The translations under genes were made by a program, and so were the position numbers. Of a DNA stretch of 38,967 bases, positions 15,220-24,702 are shown piece after piece. Each line of letters starts with the position of its first letter. Position 1 is the first letter of the stretch. The DNA is from Deltaproteobacteria bacterium (GTDB lineage Bacteria; Myxococcota_A; Polyangia; Polyangiales; Polyangiaceae), in assembly GCA_016875405.1 (NCBI GenBank), contig VGRJ01000037.1, positions 1 through 38,967 on the forward strand, in the 5' to 3' direction. The notes under the pieces were generated by a model, which saw only the letters and a list, made by a program, of their open reading frames with translations, was not told the DNA's origin and did no database searches.

Positions 15220-15756
15220 ATGCAAGGCCGTTTGGTGTGGGTCGATCTCGAGATGACAGGCCTCGACGCGGAGGCGTGCGCGATCGTCGAGATCGCGACG
15301 ATCGTCACGGACGAACAGCTCGGGATTGTCGCCGAGGGGCCCAACCACATCGTCTACCAGCCCGAGGAGGTGCTCGCGCGCATGCACCCCGAGGTTGTCG
15401 CCATGCACACGAAGAGCGGCCTGCTCGACCGCATCCGCGCGTCGAGGGTGTCGGTCGCCGAGGCCGAGGCCGCGACGCTCGCGTTCGTGCGCGAGCACTG
15501 CGAGGCGAAGGCGTCGCCGCTCTGCGGCAACTCGGTCCACAAGGACCGGCAGTTCCTCGAGCGCTACATGCCCCTGCTGCACGCTCACCTGCACTACCGC
15601 AACATCGACGTCTCGACGGTGAAGGAGCTCGTCCGCCGCTGGTATGGCGACCGCGTGCCTGCGTATGCGAAGGGCGACAAGCACCGCGCGCTCGACGACA
15701 TTCGTGAGTCGATTGGCGAGCTCCGTCACTACCGCGAGCGCGTCTTCGTCGGCTGA
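15220..15756 (+). CDS. orn: Oligoribonuclease
   Basis: 178-residue 3'-to-5' exoribonuclease that removes di- to pentanucleotides at the end of RNA turnover and, in many bacteria, hydrolyses pGpG left by c-di-GMP phosphodiesterases. The DEDDh residues are all visible: D9 and E11 in WVDLEMTGLD, D109 in HKDRQFL, H155 and D160 in KHRALDDIRES. Length and the NSVHKDRQFLERYMP block match the family closely. The start ATG 15220 gives the family N-terminus directly. It stands alone on the plus strand, divergent from a lipoprotein gene. A GGDEF gene about 3.6 kb away gives a loose thematic link to c-di-GMP. Confidence 0.98.
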   Translation: MQGRLVWVDLEMTGLDAEACAIVEIATIVTDEQLGIVAEGPNHIVYQPEEVLARMHPEVVAMHTKSGLLDRIRASRVSVAEAEAATLAFVREHCEAKASPLCGNSVHKDRQFLERYMPLLHAHLHYRNIDVSTVKELVRRWYGDRVPAYAKGDKHRALDDIRESIGELRHYRERVFVG

Positions 15757-15792: not shown

Positions 15793-16890
15793 TCAGCCGA
15801 CAGGCGAACGCGGGGCGCGCTCGCGTCGATCGACTGGGCCATCGAGCGGAGGTCGCTGCATCTCGCCGAGCCGCGCACGACGAGCCGCGGGGACGAGCGG
15901 ACCGACGGCCCGAACGAGCCGCCCCTCCGAGCCCGCGCCGAGTGTCGTCACGTAGCGGGCGAGCCCGGCGAGGAGCCTCGCGGCCGAGCCCTCGGTCGCG
16001 GGGTACACCGTGAGCGCGCGGTGCGCGGGCGCAGGCGACGCGGCGAGCGGCGCGGGGTCGAGGCCGATCAGGTGATGCGGCCCCTCGAACACCTCGCCGA
16101 CGAGCTCGAGCGAGCGCCGATGCAGGGCCAGCGTCGACCGCTCCGCGTCACCGAGCGGGCCTCGTGGCACACGCTCCCCGCGGAGCGAGAGCGCGACGTG
16201 CAGGGCCGCGGCGAACGCGCGCGCGCGCGCCGGCGAGCCGTCGACGAGGGCGAGCCGTGGCGACAGGCAGCCGCGCCCGTCGAACGGGACGAGATCGCGC
16301 GCGAGGTCGTCGGCCGCGAGCCCGAGGTCGTCCTCGTCCTCGACGAGCGCGACCCCGAACCCCGTCCCGTGTGCGCGGAGCCTCGCGCCTCGCGCCGCGG
16401 CAGGCCGTTCGAGCGCGTCGATGGTCGCGTCCGAGCCGTAGACGTGGAGTTCGTCGCCGGGCTCGAGCGCGTCGAGGGCCTCGTCGGTCGTCGTGACGAG
16501 CCGCGCCCACGGGAGCGCGCCGGCGAGCCGCTCTGCGAGCACCGCGTCTCGTCTAGAAGGCTTGACGACGATCATGTCCGAGCCCGCGAGGCCGAGCGCC
16601 AGCGCGCGTACGGCGGCGGTGCAGACGTTCGCCGACAAGACGATCGCGACTTGCCTGCACGGGCGCGCGGACGCGACGAGCGCGCGAAGAGATTCTGCCG
16701 TCGCGTGCGTCTCGAGGTGCTCGGTCAGCGCGAGCTCGATCCCTTCGGGCGAGAGATCGCCTGCCTCGACGAGCCGTCGTCGCGCGTCTTGGCCGAGCGC
16801 GTCGTTTGGATCCGCGAGGCGCCTCGCGAGCGCGAGGAGCGCCTCGACCCGCTCCCTGGGCGAGGCCGAAGAGGCCGCCCCGTCACGCAT
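15793..16890 (-). CDS. LuxC-like acyl-CoA/acyl-enzyme reductase
   Basis: 365-residue protein of the LuxC family, which reduces an activated fatty acyl group to an aldehyde with NADPH through an acyl-Cys intermediate. SANVCTAAVRALALGLAGSD then VVKPSRRD (K110) matches the aldehyde-dehydrogenase-like cofactor region, and FDGRGCLSP puts the catalytic Cys at 208. It is shorter than the roughly 480-residue luminescence LuxC, mainly at the N-terminus. Its ATG (16890) overlaps the stop of the LuxE-like gene by 8 bases, so the two are coupled. There are no luxAB genes, so light production is not implied; an aminotransferase two genes upstream suggests the aldehyde becomes an amine. Confidence 0.85.
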   Translation of the reverse strand: MRDGAASSASPRERVEALLALARRLADPNDALGQDARRRLVEAGDLSPEGIELALTEHLETHATAESLRALVASARPCRQVAIVLSANVCTAAVRALALGLAGSDMIVVKPSRRDAVLAERLAGALPWARLVTTTDEALDALEPGDELHVYGSDATIDALERPAAARGARLRAHGTGFGVALVEDEDDLGLAADDLARDLVPFDGRGCLSPRLALVDGSPARARAFAAALHVALSLRGERVPRGPLGDAERSTLALHRRSLELVGEVFEGPHHLIGLDPAPLAASPAPAHRALTVYPATEGSAARLLAGLARYVTTLGAGSEGRLVRAVGPLVPAARRARLGEMQRPPLDGPVDRRERAPRSPVG

Positions 16891-17995
16891 GTCCGAGGAG
16901 GTGCTCGAGGGCGAGCGAGCAGCCGCGAGGTGTGGCGCCAGGGAGCCTCCCGAGCAGCGTGACCGCGCCGTCGGCCGCGACGATGACGCGATCGGCCGTC
17001 TGCACGGCCAGCGACGAGTCGACGTTCGCGAGATCGACGAAGCGCGCGATCCCCACCTCGCCTCGCGGAAGCGTCGCGAGCGTCGTCGGACAGGCGGCCT
17101 CGACGCGCAGCCAGGGCGGCGGATGGTAGGCGTCGTCCGCGGCGCTCGAGCCCGCCACGAGCGGCGCTCCGTAGAGCGCGGCGATCCCTCCCTGGTAGAG
17201 CTGGCTCGCGAGCTCGGTCATGCCGTACTCGGCGATCACCGCCCGCTCGTCGAGCGCGAACAGGTCGGCGATCGAGCGCCGCAGCGCGGACGCCTCGACC
17301 TCGCGGCTGCGCCCCTTGAAGCCGCCGGTCTGCATCACGCGACTCCCGGCCGGGAGCGGCAGTGCGCGGCGGACGGCGTCGCACAGGTGGACGAAGGCGA
17401 ACGAGGTCCCCGCGACGAGGACGGGTGCGTCGCCCGCGCGGGCCTCGTCGAGCTCGCGCGCGAGCGCATCATGGTCGAGTCGCTCGCCGTCCCAGAAGAA
17501 ACGGCCGCCACCGTGCCGATCCGCGAAGCGCGCCAGCATGTAGCCAAGCGACGACTCCGGGGCCCGTTCTTCGTCGGCGGTGAGCAACACGACGCGTAGC
17601 CGCGCGTCGTCTGGCCAGAGCGCGCGCGCCCCCCAGGCGAGAGCGCCGCGGCGATAGGTCTCGAGCGTCCGGAACGGATGGCGCCCGCGCTGCGAGCCCG
17701 TCGTCCCGCTCGTCGCGAACACCCGCAGGTCCTCGCTCTCGGGATGGGCGGCGATCCGCCGGAGGCGGAACACGTCGGTCGGCAGCGCGGGGATCGCGGC
17801 CGCATGGTCGAGGGCTCTCGGATCGACGCCCGCTCGCGCGAAGGCGCTCGCGACCCCGGGCACGTACTCGGCCTGATGGCGAGCGAGGTCGCACGCCAAG
17901 CGATCGAAGGTCTCACGGTGGGCGCCCGCGAGGCTCGCGTCGATGAAGGCTCGAACGCGCTCGTGGAGGCGGTCCGTCTCGGCGACCCGACTCAC
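16883..17995 (-). CDS. LuxE-like acyl-protein synthetase (acyl-activating enzyme)
   Basis: 370-residue member of the LuxE group of the adenylate-forming family, which activates a carboxylic acid with ATP and holds it as an acyl-thioester for the reductase. The phosphate-binding loop FATSGTTGSQRGRHPF has SGTTG at 96-100; VIAEYGMTEL is the Y/GMTE adenylation motif. The C-terminal GATPRGCSLALEHLL carries Cys359, where luminescence LuxE proteins have their acylated Cys. The start GTG 17995 shares bases with the aminotransferase stop (GTGA overlap), the only arrangement that fits the family N-terminus. Substrate chain length cannot be read from sequence. A stand-alone acyl-CoA ligase role is possible, but pairing with LuxC favours aldehyde formation. 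Confidence 0.86.
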   Translation of the reverse strand: MSRVAETDRLHERVRAFIDASLAGAHRETFDRLACDLARHQAEYVPGVASAFARAGVDPRALDHAAAIPALPTDVFRLRRIAAHPESEDLRVFATSGTTGSQRGRHPFRTLETYRRGALAWGARALWPDDARLRVVLLTADEERAPESSLGYMLARFADRHGGGRFFWDGERLDHDALARELDEARAGDAPVLVAGTSFAFVHLCDAVRRALPLPAGSRVMQTGGFKGRSREVEASALRRSIADLFALDERAVIAEYGMTELASQLYQGGIAALYGAPLVAGSSAADDAYHPPPWLRVEAACPTTLATLPRGEVGIARFVDLANVDSSLAVQTADRVIVAADGAVTLLGRLPGATPRGCSLALEHLLGHA

Positions 17996-19293
17996 CTCGC
18001 CTCCAGGCACGCGAGGAGGGCCGCGCCGAAGCCGTCGAGCTCGTCGAGCTCGACGGTGAGCGGGGGCGTGAGCGTGAGCGTCGCCCCGTCGACTCCGCCC
18101 GTCACGACGAGGTAGCCACGCCGCAAGAGCTCGCGGGTCGCGCCGAGCGCGGTGCGTGCCGAGTCGAGCTCGACACCGATCATGAGTCCCGCGCCCCGCA
18201 CGTCCCGGACGCTCGGGTGGGCGAGGCGCTCGCGCAGGGCGACCCGGGCGTCCTCCCCGACTGCGCGCGCGCGCTCGACGAGCCTCTCCTCGCGCAGCGT
18301 CGCGAGGACGGCCAGCGCCGCCGTGCAGCCGAGCGGCGCCCCTGCGTGCGTCGAGGTGTGGATCACCTCGCCGCTCGACCAGCCTGCCATCGCCGCGCGC
18401 GAGGCGACACACGCCGAGATCGGCATGCCGCCCCCCAGGCCTTTGCCGAGGCACACCACATCTGCGGCTACGCCCTCGGCTTCGCTCCTGAGCCATGAGC
18501 CCGAGCGCCCGAGGCCGGTCCACACTTCGTCGACGACGAGCAGCGCGCCGGCTTCCCGCGTGAGCGCCGCGACCGCCGCGAGCCACCCAGGCGGCGGGAC
18601 CACGCACCCGCCGCGCCCTGCGATGGGCTCGACCAACACCGCGGCGGTCGGGGTCGCCGCGAGCGCCTGGCGAAGCTGCTCGAGCGAGACCGCTGCCGTC
18701 GCGCCGCGCACGCCAGGATAGGCGCAGAAACCGACGTGTCGGTTGAGCTGCGGAGCGAACGGCTCGCGGAAGCTCGCCTTGAAGCCGCAGGCTGCGAGCG
18801 GCCCATGGGCGAGCCCGTGGTATGCTCCATCGAATGCGACGAAGCCGTGCCGCCCGGTCGCGAGCGAGGCCGTCTTCATCGCAGCGGTCACGGCGTCGGC
18901 ACCCGACTGCGTGAGGAGCGCCTGGCCATCGCCACCCGGAATAAGGGCCGCGAGCTCACCGAGGAGCGCCACCTTCACGTCGCTCGCGTAGACGTCGCCG
19001 AGGCCCTGCACGAGCGTGTCGACCTGAGCGTGAAGCGCTGCGCGGAGCTTCGGGTGATCGTGCCCGAGCAGCACCGAGCCAAAGCCCGCCGCGAGGTCGA
19101 GGTAGCGGTGTCCGTCGACGTCGACGAGCGTCGTGCCGGCCCCGCGTTGAAGGACGATCGGCGCGGCGTCGGCAGCGTCTGCGCCGCTTCGGCCTGTCCG
19201 CCGCCTCGCGAACGCGGGGCACTCGACCCCCGCGAGCTCGTCTCCGAGCGCGAGCGACCGTGGCCCCGGGATCGACGCGCCGTCGCGACTCAC
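17992..19293 (-). CDS. Class III PLP-dependent aminotransferase
   Basis: 433-residue aminotransferase (fold type I, class III: the group of GABA, ornithine and amine:pyruvate aminotransferases), moving an amino group onto an aldehyde or keto acid. The PLP-binding Lys is K284 in CLGKGLGGGMPIS; D255 in LLVVDEVWTGLGR binds the pyridine nitrogen; TQSGADAVTAAMKTA binds the phosphate. The start GTG 19293 follows a strong GGAGGAG ribosome binding site. Its stop overlaps the LuxE-like start, so it begins a tight three-gene operon. Class III enzymes often act on terminal aldehydes, which is exactly what LuxC would make, so the predicted step is aldehyde to primary amine; the reverse direction cannot be excluded. 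Confidence 0.9.
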   Translation of the reverse strand: MSRDGASIPGPRSLALGDELAGVECPAFARRRTGRSGADAADAAPIVLQRGAGTTLVDVDGHRYLDLAAGFGSVLLGHDHPKLRAALHAQVDTLVQGLGDVYASDVKVALLGELAALIPGGDGQALLTQSGADAVTAAMKTASLATGRHGFVAFDGAYHGLAHGPLAACGFKASFREPFAPQLNRHVGFCAYPGVRGATAAVSLEQLRQALAATPTAAVLVEPIAGRGGCVVPPPGWLAAVAALTREAGALLVVDEVWTGLGRSGSWLRSEAEGVAADVVCLGKGLGGGMPISACVASRAAMAGWSSGEVIHTSTHAGAPLGCTAALAVLATLREERLVERARAVGEDARVALRERLAHPSVRDVRGAGLMIGVELDSARTALGATRELLRRGYLVVTGGVDGATLTLTPPLTVELDELDGFGAALLACLEAR

Positions 19294-19321
19294 GCGCCCT
19301 CTCCTCCTTTTCCGCCGTGCG

Positions 19322-20227
19322 TCAGGCGCACACGCGGTTGCGGCCGCCGTTCTTCGCCTGGTAGAGCCGCTCGTCGGCGCGCTGGATAAGCTCGGTCGCG
19401 GTCTTGTCCGACTCGCCGAGCAACGCGCAGCCGCCGCTCACGGTCACCTTGATACGGTCCTGCTGGAAGGTGAACGATTGCTCGGCGATTTGCTGTCGAA
19501 GGCGCTCGCCGACCTCGACCGCTCCTTGAAGGGGCGTCTCGGGCAACACGAGGCAGAACTCCTCGCCGCCGTACCGCGCGAACACCTCGTCGCGCCGGAT
19601 CCGCGCCTGCACCAGCCGCGCGACCTCCTTCAGCACATAGTCGCCTGCGAGGTGGCCGTGCAAGTCGTTGATCCGCTTGAAGTGATCGATGTCAAACATC
19701 AGGATCGACAGGTCGCGGCCGTGACGGCGCGCGCGGATGAGCTCTCGCTCGAGCGCCTCGCTGAGGTAGCGCTTGTTGTGGATCTGGGTGAGGCCGTCCA
19801 CGATCGTGAGCCGGTAGATCTCCTCGTGGTACTGCGCCTCGACGTCCTCGCCGGAGAGATACTTGAAGATCGTCGAGCCGATCTTCACGCGGTCGCCGTT
19901 GCGCAGCGCGACCTCGCGGCGCACTTGCTCGTCGTTGCAGTAGGTTCCGTTGGTGCTCCCGTCGTCGGCCACCACCCACTGCGCGCCGCGGGCGTCGAAG
20001 TGGGCGTGGCGACGCGACACCGCGTCGCTGTCGAGGACGATCTGATTGTCCGTCCCCCGGCCGACGCGGACCACGTCTCCGTCGAGGACGAAGCGCTTGC
20101 CCATCAGCGTGGGCTCCTTCGTGTAGATGACGACGAGGCAGTCGGTCCGCGGACCAGCGCCGTCCTCCGCGCCGCCCTCTGCCGGGCGCACCACCTTCGT
20201 GACGCGCGTCTTCTCGTCGAAACTCAC
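19322..20227 (-). CDS. FHA-GGDEF protein, probable diguanylate cyclase
   Basis: 301-residue cytoplasmic protein. The FHA domain (about 40-125) shows GRGTDNQIVLDSDAVSRRHA and GSTNGTYC (SRRHA at 71-75, NGT at 93-95), so it probably binds a phosphothreonine partner. The GGDEF domain (about 140-300) has an intact active site RYGGEEF (GGEEF 220-224) and the metal/nucleotide loop FDIDHFKRIND. The product-inhibition site position reads RRDE (211-214), RxxE not RxxD, so feedback may be weak. The start is GTG 20227 (a second GTG sits directly upstream at 20230); no good start gives a longer N-terminus. The aminotransferase follows by 28 bp, so they may share a transcript. Confidence 0.9.
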   Translation of the reverse strand: MSFDEKTRVTKVVRPAEGGAEDGAGPRTDCLVVIYTKEPTLMGKRFVLDGDVVRVGRGTDNQIVLDSDAVSRRHAHFDARGAQWVVADDGSTNGTYCNDEQVRREVALRNGDRVKIGSTIFKYLSGEDVEAQYHEEIYRLTIVDGLTQIHNKRYLSEALERELIRARRHGRDLSILMFDIDHFKRINDLHGHLAGDYVLKEVARLVQARIRRDEVFARYGGEEFCLVLPETPLQGAVEVGERLRQQIAEQSFTFQQDRIKVTVSGGCALLGESDKTATELIQRADERLYQAKNGGRNRVCA

Positions 20228-23199: not shown

Positions 23200-24702
23200 A
23201 TGGCTTCGATTCGCGCCCTGTCCCCCTGGCTCCTCGGAACCCTCGTGCTCTCGACGGCGTGCGTCGACGCGCTGCGACTCGAGCCGCCGACCGGCTCCGG
23301 CAGCGGCGGCTCCGGGAACTCGACCGGCTCGACGCAGGGTGCTGGAGGCGGCGAGGCGATCCCCTGCAACTCCAACAGCGAGTGCCCCGAGCCGACCAGC
23401 GTGTGCGACACCGTCCAGGGACTCTGCGTCGAGTGCTTGGTGCTCTCGGACTGCGGGTTCCGGCCCGGTACCGTGTGCAGCGAGGGCGCGTGCGTGTGCC
23501 CGGACAAGCTCTCGTACTGCGGCCCGAGCGAATGCGTCGATCTCACCACCTCGCCGGTTCACTGCGGCAAGTGCGGTCACGCGTGCTTCGGTCTGTGCGC
23601 CGCGGGTACGTGCGTCGATCCGTGGGAGCCCGTCGCTGCCGAGGGGGCTCCGTCCGCGCGCTCGAACCATGTCGCGGTCTGGACGGGCAGCAAGATGGTC
23701 GTCTGGGGCGGGCTCTCGAACGGCTCGGGCAACGGCGCGGTGGCGACCGGCGGCGTTTACGATCCGACGACCTACACCTGGACGACGACTTCCCCCGTCG
23801 GAGCACCGAAGGCTCGCTACGACGCGACCGCGGTATGGACCGGGACCGAGATGGTCGTCTGGGGCGGCCTCGACTCGCATGGGCTCGCCTTGAACGACGG
23901 CGCGCGCTTCGACCCCACGAAGAACGCGTGGACGCCGATCTCGTTGAGCCTCGCGCCGACTCCGCGCGGGGGTCACTCGGCGGTGTGGACCGGCAGCGAG
24001 ATGATCGTCTGGGGTGGCAAGAGCGACGTCGGCGAGCTGAGCAACGGCGCGCGCTACAACCCGACGACCAACGCCTGGACGCTGATCATGACCTACGCGT
24101 TCCCGCAGACCGCGCGGACGCGCCACTGCGCCGTGTGGGACAAGGCGAAGTCCCTCATGAACGTGGTCGGTGGCTTCGGTGACAACGTGACCGATGCCGT
24201 GACCGACGTGTACTTCCCGAACGGAACGGCGCGCGCGCTCCTGCAGTACGCGCCGGTCGGCGAGAACTGGTACAACACCGGCGAGCCGTCCGAGCCTTCC
24301 GCACGCTCCAATCACACCTGCGTGTACGACGGCCTGAAGACGATCGTCTTCGGCGGCATGGTGAGCGGCACCTACCACCCGTCCGGCGCCGCTTGGGATC
24401 CGACCCTCGGCTGGACCACGATCGGCGGGACGCTGCCCGAGCCGCGCGCCGACCACTCGGCCGTGTGGCTCGACACCCAGAAGGTGATGGTCACCTTCGG
24501 CGGCCGCAACCCGAACCCGCTCGACAGCGGCGACATCTACAACAGCGCGTCGAACAGCTGGATCGGACAGGTCCCGCGTGCGCTCTCGGCCCGGTATTCG
24601 CACACCGCCGTCGCGACGGGTGACCGCATGATCGTGTGGGGCGGAACCGGTCCGATGATGGATCGCCTCGCCAACGGCGGCATCTACACGTACAAGCCTT
24701 GA
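23200..24702 (+). CDS. Kelch-repeat lipoprotein with Cys-rich N-terminal region
   Basis: 500-residue surface protein. MASIRALSPWLLGTLVLSTAC is a signal peptide with lipobox STAC (Cys21); a Gly/Ser linker (about 31-52) follows. Residues about 55-145 are Cys-rich with a Stig1-like HCGKCGHAC. From about 150 to the end, Kelch blades form a beta-propeller: RSNHVAVWTGSKMVVWGG, RYDATAVWTGTEMVVWGG, GGHSAVWTGSEMIVWGG, then RADHSAVWLDT and RYSHTAVATGDRMIVWGG, six to seven blades. Propellers of this kind usually bind protein or glycan partners. GGAGGAA eight bases before ATG 23200 is a strong ribosome binding site. Its stop abuts the priA start. Confidence 0.92.
   Translation: MASIRALSPWLLGTLVLSTACVDALRLEPPTGSGSGGSGNSTGSTQGAGGGEAIPCNSNSECPEPTSVCDTVQGLCVECLVLSDCGFRPGTVCSEGACVCPDKLSYCGPSECVDLTTSPVHCGKCGHACFGLCAAGTCVDPWEPVAAEGAPSARSNHVAVWTGSKMVVWGGLSNGSGNGAVATGGVYDPTTYTWTTTSPVGAPKARYDATAVWTGTEMVVWGGLDSHGLALNDGARFDPTKNAWTPISLSLAPTPRGGHSAVWTGSEMIVWGGKSDVGELSNGARYNPTTNAWTLIMTYAFPQTARTRHCAVWDKAKSLMNVVGGFGDNVTDAVTDVYFPNGTARALLQYAPVGENWYNTGEPSEPSARSNHTCVYDGLKTIVFGGMVSGTYHPSGAAWDPTLGWTTIGGTLPEPRADHSAVWLDTQKVMVTFGGRNPNPLDSGDIYNSASNSWIGQVPRALSARYSHTAVATGDRMIVWGGTGPMMDRLANGGIYTYKP

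Follow-up and report, generated by a model that had tools for sequence, protein, structure and literature searches.

An aminotransferase–LuxE–LuxC operon of Myxococcota as a candidate nitrile-free route to the queuosine precursor preQ1

The question raised by the locus described here is which compound is made by an operon that couples a class III aminotransferase to relatives of the bioluminescence proteins LuxE and LuxC. The operon is located on contig VGRJ01000037.1 (assembly GCA_016875405.1) of a bacterium of the family Polyangiaceae, within a stretch of 38,967 nucleotides that was analysed as a whole and is referred to as the window. All three genes, the trio, lie on the minus strand. The first gene (17992–19293, GTG start) encodes a class III pyridoxal 5′-phosphate (PLP) aminotransferase of 433 amino acids (PF00202, 4.6e-86). 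It is followed by a gene for a LuxE-like acid-activating enzyme of 370 amino acids (16883–17995, GTG start; PF04443, 1.8e-7) and by a gene for a LuxC-like acyl reductase of 365 amino acids (15793–16890, ATG start; PF05893, 7e-15). The stop and start codons of the aminotransferase and LuxE-like genes overlap by 4 bases (GTGA, 17992–17995), and the LuxE-like and LuxC-like genes overlap by 8 bases (16883–16890). An earlier note on this DNA had described the trio with these overlaps, its key residues and an FHA-GGDEF gene 28 bp upstream; all were found in their places, and the existence of the operon with its catalytic residues kept is confirmed. The same note had suggested that the trio converts an acid through an aldehyde into a primary amine without luxAB, perhaps a lipid amine or a head group. 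This chemistry fits everything found below, and the substrate class is unsupported.

The operon and the gap between CDG and preQ1

The product of QueE, 7-carboxy-7-deazaguanine (CDG), is an acid, and 7-aminomethyl-7-deazaguanine (preQ1) is the matching primary amine. PreQ1 is the substrate of Tgt, which puts it into tRNA en route to queuosine. The known enzymes between CDG and preQ1 are QueC and QueF, and the canonical route needs QueD, QueE, QueC and QueF (PMC11130926). The host genome, which is rated 99.1% complete, was searched with profiles for QueE, QueC, QueF, QueA and Tgt, and neither QueC nor QueF was found. It encodes a full-length QueE (G000:C118; 261 bits, under the model's cut-off of 300 bits), a single Tgt (456 bits) and QueA (406 bits), the genes of the latter two adjoining each other (G000:C52). 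Since genes for an acid-to-amine conversion occur where both usual preQ1 enzymes are missing, the trio is probably a second route to preQ1. The conversion of the CDG carboxylate into an aldehyde and then into an aminomethyl group would be exactly the chemistry of the three trio families.

From the genomes compared we infer that the operon is, with high probability, an alternative route from CDG to preQ1 for tRNA queuosine. The chemistry of LuxE, LuxC and class III aminotransferases is established. We propose that the LuxE-like enzyme would adenylate the carboxylate of CDG with ATP and take the acyl group onto C359. The LuxC-like enzyme would then receive the acyl group on its C208, and reduction with NAD(P)H would yield 7-formyl-7-deazaguanine. 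In the last step, the class III aminotransferase, with PLP bound to K284, would convert this aldehyde with the help of an amino donor into preQ1. The nitrile 7-cyano-7-deazaguanine (preQ0) would be bypassed in this order of steps, and QueC, which converts CDG into preQ0, and QueF, which converts preQ0 into preQ1, would be unneeded. It is also probable, at a slightly lower level of confidence, that such a nitrile-free pathway is widespread and replaces QueC and QueF non-orthologously in much of Myxococcota and in several other phyla. The aminotransferase of this pathway would have a displaced active-site arginine, and an enzyme of the canonical type would have been recruited as a second aminotransferase in other lineages, for example in KSB1.

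Distribution of the trio, QueC, QueF and QueE

The distribution of these genes was assessed in 379 genomes of Myxococcota. Strong LuxE matches were defined by E < 1e-40 and were obtained in 292 genomes (303 at E <= 1e-15 minus 11 weak ones), and true QueF, defined by at least 76 bits, was present in 47. The thresholds were chosen after the scores had been seen; the gaps between the QueF scores are wide (at least 76 bits, 55–64 bits in 12 genomes, and at most 33 bits). Weak QueF matches of about 21–33 bits, mostly to profile positions 1–59, were treated as putative FolE-type cross-hits. Not one of the 379 genomes combines strong LuxE with true QueF (Fisher 3e-36 with relatedness ignored, a value that overstates independence because the genomes are related and the pattern is phylogenetically clumped). 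At the family level, true QueF occurs in 12 families, and strong LuxE in none of those 12. QueC mostly goes with QueF. Within the host's order LuxE is present in 69 of the 72 genomes and QueC or true QueF in none, and the other orders of the host's class have QueC, mostly QueF, and LuxE matches that are weak at most. The aminotransferase subfamily tracks LuxE: 281 of 361 genomes have it, almost all of them as a single gene, and it is absent from all 19 genomes of the same class listed among its negatives, each of which has QueC (19/19). Tgt was present in all 104 genomes sampled.

A second sample comprised 50 genomes from many phyla, picked by trio-type LuxE alone. True QueF (G473, G475, G479) and canonical QueC (G471, G475, G479) were found in three genomes each, four genomes altogether, and in each of these four LuxE has no adjacent aminotransferase. 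The LuxE proteins of G473, G475 and G479 form one clade apart from the trio LuxE. None of the 22 genomes with an aminotransferase near LuxE has true QueF. Matches to the QueE model, some of them weak, were obtained in 43 of the 50.

A direct link to the queuosine pathway is provided by the position of QueE. In three loci of Verrucomicrobia (L194, L198 and L206), the gene before the aminotransferase gene encodes, on the same strand, a 215-amino-acid radical S-adenosylmethionine protein that passes the QueE model (303–307 bits, cut-off 300). A KSB1 locus (L221) has the order LuxE–LuxC–aminotransferase and then QueE, in the same orientation, and in one locus of the host's order (L086) QueE lies upstream of the trio, again on the same strand. 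Such linkage is rare (5 of 160 scanned loci, in three lineages); the count is higher than the value of about 0.4 that a rough estimate gives for a single QueE gene located randomly in genomes of such size. Two full-length Tgt homologues occur in many Myxococcota outside the host's class.

The LuxE-like and LuxC-like enzymes might act on CDG and nevertheless lead to another 7-deazaguanine, for DNA modification or a secondary metabolite, with preQ1 being obtained by salvage. Roles of 7-deazaguanines outside tRNA are described in PMC6884629, and the second Tgt homologue of many Myxococcota would also suit such a use. The host, however, has a single Tgt whose gene adjoins QueA, salvage of preQ1 would make QueE unnecessary, and, in contrast to clusters for DNA modification or secondary metabolism, the module occurs in nearly every genome of the host's order. 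We regard this explanation as exceedingly unlikely.

Several observations weigh against the proposed synthesis of preQ1 by the trio, among them the phylogenetic clumping and the rarity of the QueE linkage given above. QueC and strong LuxE coexist in three genomes (G176, G232 and G249). In G176 a QueC–FolE2–QueE–QueC cluster (L261:5718–8918, minus strand) lies apart from the trio; a separate use of the 7-deazaguanine pathway is likely in this genome because its two QueC genes cluster with FolE2 and a different type of QueE (Cx14CxxC). The coexistence in G232 and G249 stays unexplained. A QueF-like protein of 55–64 bits is present in 12 genomes of the families f33 and f35, most of which have LuxE. 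Two of these 12 proteins were read (L262:6652–7230 and L263:7153–7734, both on the minus strand). They score below the QueF-II cut-off, are extended at the N terminus by about 50 residues and contain FLGVANQPDF/Y, without a catalytic Cys, in the region LCPxTGQPDF, which we take to be the position of this residue in QueF. At first sight the QueF-like proteins of f33 and f35 contradict the exclusion; the catalytic Cys is missing from the two of the 12 that were read. Divergent QueC-like proteins (71–133 bits, Pfam cut-off 22) are encoded in 8 of the 22 genomes with a linked aminotransferase. Proteins of this kind with 90–133 bits are present in G444–G447, G438, G440, G442 and G482, genomes of Verrucomicrobia, Methylomirabilota and Omnitrophota that lack true QueF. 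The aminotransferase linked to LuxE and LuxC is of the canonical Glu/Arg kind in KSB1, Nitrospirota and Methylomirabilota (L152, L155, L156, L158, L217 and L221), and LuxC is unlinked in some loci, for example L077, L078, L079, L085 and L088, with no genome-wide search for LuxC by a trio profile. Finally, no preQ1 riboswitch, an element that is common and not required, was found in 13 loci.

Conservation of the locus and properties of the three proteins

The earlier note had named the conservation of the trio as a unit as a point on which its reading depended. The gene order is kept across the host's order, other classes of Myxococcota and other phyla, which exceeds chance. Trio LuxE was detected in 111 of 116 relatives, mostly as a single copy. 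In all 60 loci compared from the host's order the aminotransferase gene is located upstream of LuxE on the same strand; LuxC follows LuxE directly in 48 of them and lies at most 10 kb away in 3 more. Two genomes of the host's family (G020 and G025) lack LuxE and have the aminotransferase, which in G020 is found at a contig end. Among 20 loci from other classes of Myxococcota, 15 contain all three genes in order, and the remaining 5 contain LuxE–LuxC, an aminotransferase gene of the trio's subfamily being located at another site of the genome, as in the single-contig genome G122. A scan of named genomes revealed the same gene order in Verrucomicrobia, Planctomycetota, Omnitrophota, a metagenome-assembled genome of Chlamydiota, and UBP4. 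Apart from the trio, no neighbouring gene is constant among the loci compared. The neighbours are housekeeping genes: several genomes of the host's order carry rpsD-rpoA-rplQ upstream, another class has suf genes, G122 has dnaN-recF and Omnitrophota have a glutamate synthase gene. No lipid genes were found among the annotated neighbours.

The LuxE-like protein passes the Pfam LuxE model (30.8 bits, cut-off 24.9) and reaches 26.8 bits with NF052244, the equivalog of the long-chain-fatty-acid–protein ligase of luminescence, compared with a cut-off of 550. Judged by these scores, it is a LuxE-like protein distinct from luminescence LuxE. Its nearest solved structure by sequence is the LuxE of 7xc6 (E 9.5e-7), the LuxC–LuxE complex of Photobacterium. 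The residues of the trio proteins were compared in alignments of 23–28 diverse homologues each. S96-G97-T98, E256-YGMTE and C359 of the LuxE-like protein are invariant (28 rows), C359 also in two further alignments. The LuxC-like protein passes PF05893 (55.2 bits, cut-off 21), its C208 is invariant, and it carries the C-terminal motif GxMQxPPLDGPVD. A sequence-only search gave no convincing PDB relative of this protein; its AlphaFold2 model (predicted local distance difference test, pLDDT, 94.3) has the LuxC of 7xc6 (7xc6_A) as the best PDB fold match (E 3.2e-15). LuxE–LuxC gene fusions are present in four genomes of different families (L087:10051–12282, 743 amino acids; L130:1104–3521, 805 amino acids; L137:100–2487, 795 amino acids; L250:8303–10708, 802 amino acids), as would suit a direct transfer of the acyl group from one protein to the other.

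LuxE and LuxC of luminous bacteria use fatty acids, and the trio could correspondingly make a long-chain or lipid amine, LuxE activating a fatty acid, LuxC reducing it to the fatty aldehyde and the aminotransferase yielding a fatty amine or head group. The LuxC fold match is in favour of such a substrate, whereas the distance of the LuxE-like protein from true LuxE argues against it, as do the annotated neighbours, which are ribosomal and RNA polymerase genes, suf, dnaN-recF and QueE. A lipid amine would also leave the mutual exclusion with QueF and the missing step from CDG to preQ1 unexplained. The trio usually occurs once per genome, is present almost throughout the order, follows the absence of QueC and QueF, and stands beside QueE in three lineages; a lipid product is thus very doubtful.

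The aminotransferase scores 289.5 bits with PF00202, and its AlphaFold2 model has a pLDDT of 92.9. K284, the PLP lysine, and D255 are invariant among diverse homologues. Its active-site columns were compared with class III reference chains of the ArgD, GabT and PatA types. The column of the gate Glu in EPxxGE is occupied by Arg (R227 in the window protein) in 118 of 118 trio aminotransferases, and the canonical carboxylate-binding Arg before xxPPL is kept in 0 of 118, with Thr, Ser, Ala or other residues in its place. The charge seems to have moved to the opposite side of the active site, and the alignments point to a distinct subfamily of class III. The tight clustering with a known amino-acid enzyme family that the earlier note had named as damaging to its idea was not observed: the protein is below the cut-off of every one of the 25 best NCBIfam models. 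The canonical-type enzymes of KSB1, Nitrospirota, Methylomirabilota and similar cases would represent a second recruitment.

In the PDB, the aminotransferase matches ArgD, putrescine aminotransferase and GabT best, with PigE (4ppm) also among the matches. The first three agree with the possibility that the product of the trio is a different core amine, for example a polyamine or an amino acid, formed in parallel to ArgB/ArgC/ArgD or LysZ/LysY/LysJ, and that the pattern opposed to QueF merely reflects lineage history; the housekeeping neighbours and the near-universal, mostly single-copy occurrence agree with it as well. Such a product would not account for the linkage of QueE to the trio in three lineages or for the absence of both QueC and QueF while QueE, QueA and Tgt are retained. 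The exclusion recurs in the multi-phylum sample, and the missing canonical carboxylate-binding Arg is a further argument against this alternative, which we consider quite improbable. The lipid-amine and the polyamine or amino-acid readings were considered first and then dropped because the neighbours include no lipid genes and QueE lies upstream of the trio in Verrucomicrobia.

The FHA-GGDEF gene upstream of the trio (19322–20227, minus strand; PF00498, 1.3e-18; PF00990, 1.6e-48) encodes a diguanylate cyclase-like protein outside the proposed pathway, and 28 bases (19294–19321) separate its stop codon from the start of the aminotransferase gene. It is a frequent neighbour inside the host's family f1 (cluster 2, 32 loci); in the loci compared from outside this family, no such gene precedes the trio. 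The suggestion of the earlier note that the operon is controlled through this gene is unsupported beyond the family; control by cyclic di-GMP is unproven because the neighbour is conserved in the host's family only. On the other side of the operon, an oligoribonuclease-like exonuclease gene of the RNase_T family (15220–15756, plus strand; 3.9e-29) is convergent with the trio and adjoins it in the closest relatives (L034 and L035) as well. The window also encodes a Kelch-repeat protein whose N-terminal part is rich in Cys (23200–24702, plus strand).

Significance and comparison with known systems

Queuosine is a widespread wobble modification for which eukaryotes rely on bacteria. Surveys decide from the presence of QueD, QueE, QueC and QueF which species make it and which use it (PMC11130926), and species with the trio route would therefore be counted as unable to make preQ1. 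If the proposal is true, a pathway gap is closed for much of Myxococcota and for parts of other phyla, and three enzymes become available for work with 7-deazaguanines, namely one that adenylates a purine-like acid, a reductase and an aminotransferase that acts on an aldehyde. No description of the trio or of a preQ1 route independent of QueC and QueF was found in the open-access literature that was searched, subscription journals and bioRxiv lying outside the search; the novelty of the route is a matter of "not found" and is not proven.

The trio shares with canonical QueC and QueF the proposed start, CDG, the proposed end, preQ1, and a first step in which ATP activates the same carboxylate. 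The two systems have no homology, and an aldehyde and a transaminase would take the place of the nitrile and the nitrile reductase. Similar to LuxC and LuxE of luminous bacteria (7xc6), the window encodes in adjacent genes a LuxE-type protein that has a Cys towards its C terminus and a LuxC-type protein of the aldehyde dehydrogenase fold with a catalytic Cys. Here the LuxC-like protein is shorter (365 compared with 477 amino acids), and the pair is coupled to an aminotransferase. The systems ArgB–ArgC–ArgD and LysZ–LysY–LysJ likewise lead from a carboxylate through an activated acyl group and a semialdehyde to an amine, the last enzyme being a class III aminotransferase. They activate the acid as an acyl phosphate, whereas the trio would use an acyl adenylate and thioester, and the trio aminotransferase belongs to another subfamily. 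The conversion of an acyl thioester into an aldehyde and, by a class III aminotransferase, into a primary amine is also common to PigE of prodigiosin and TamH of tambjamine biosynthesis, both reductase-aminotransferases. Unlike the trio, these are fused enzymes of secondary metabolism and neither LuxE/LuxC proteins nor products of core genes.

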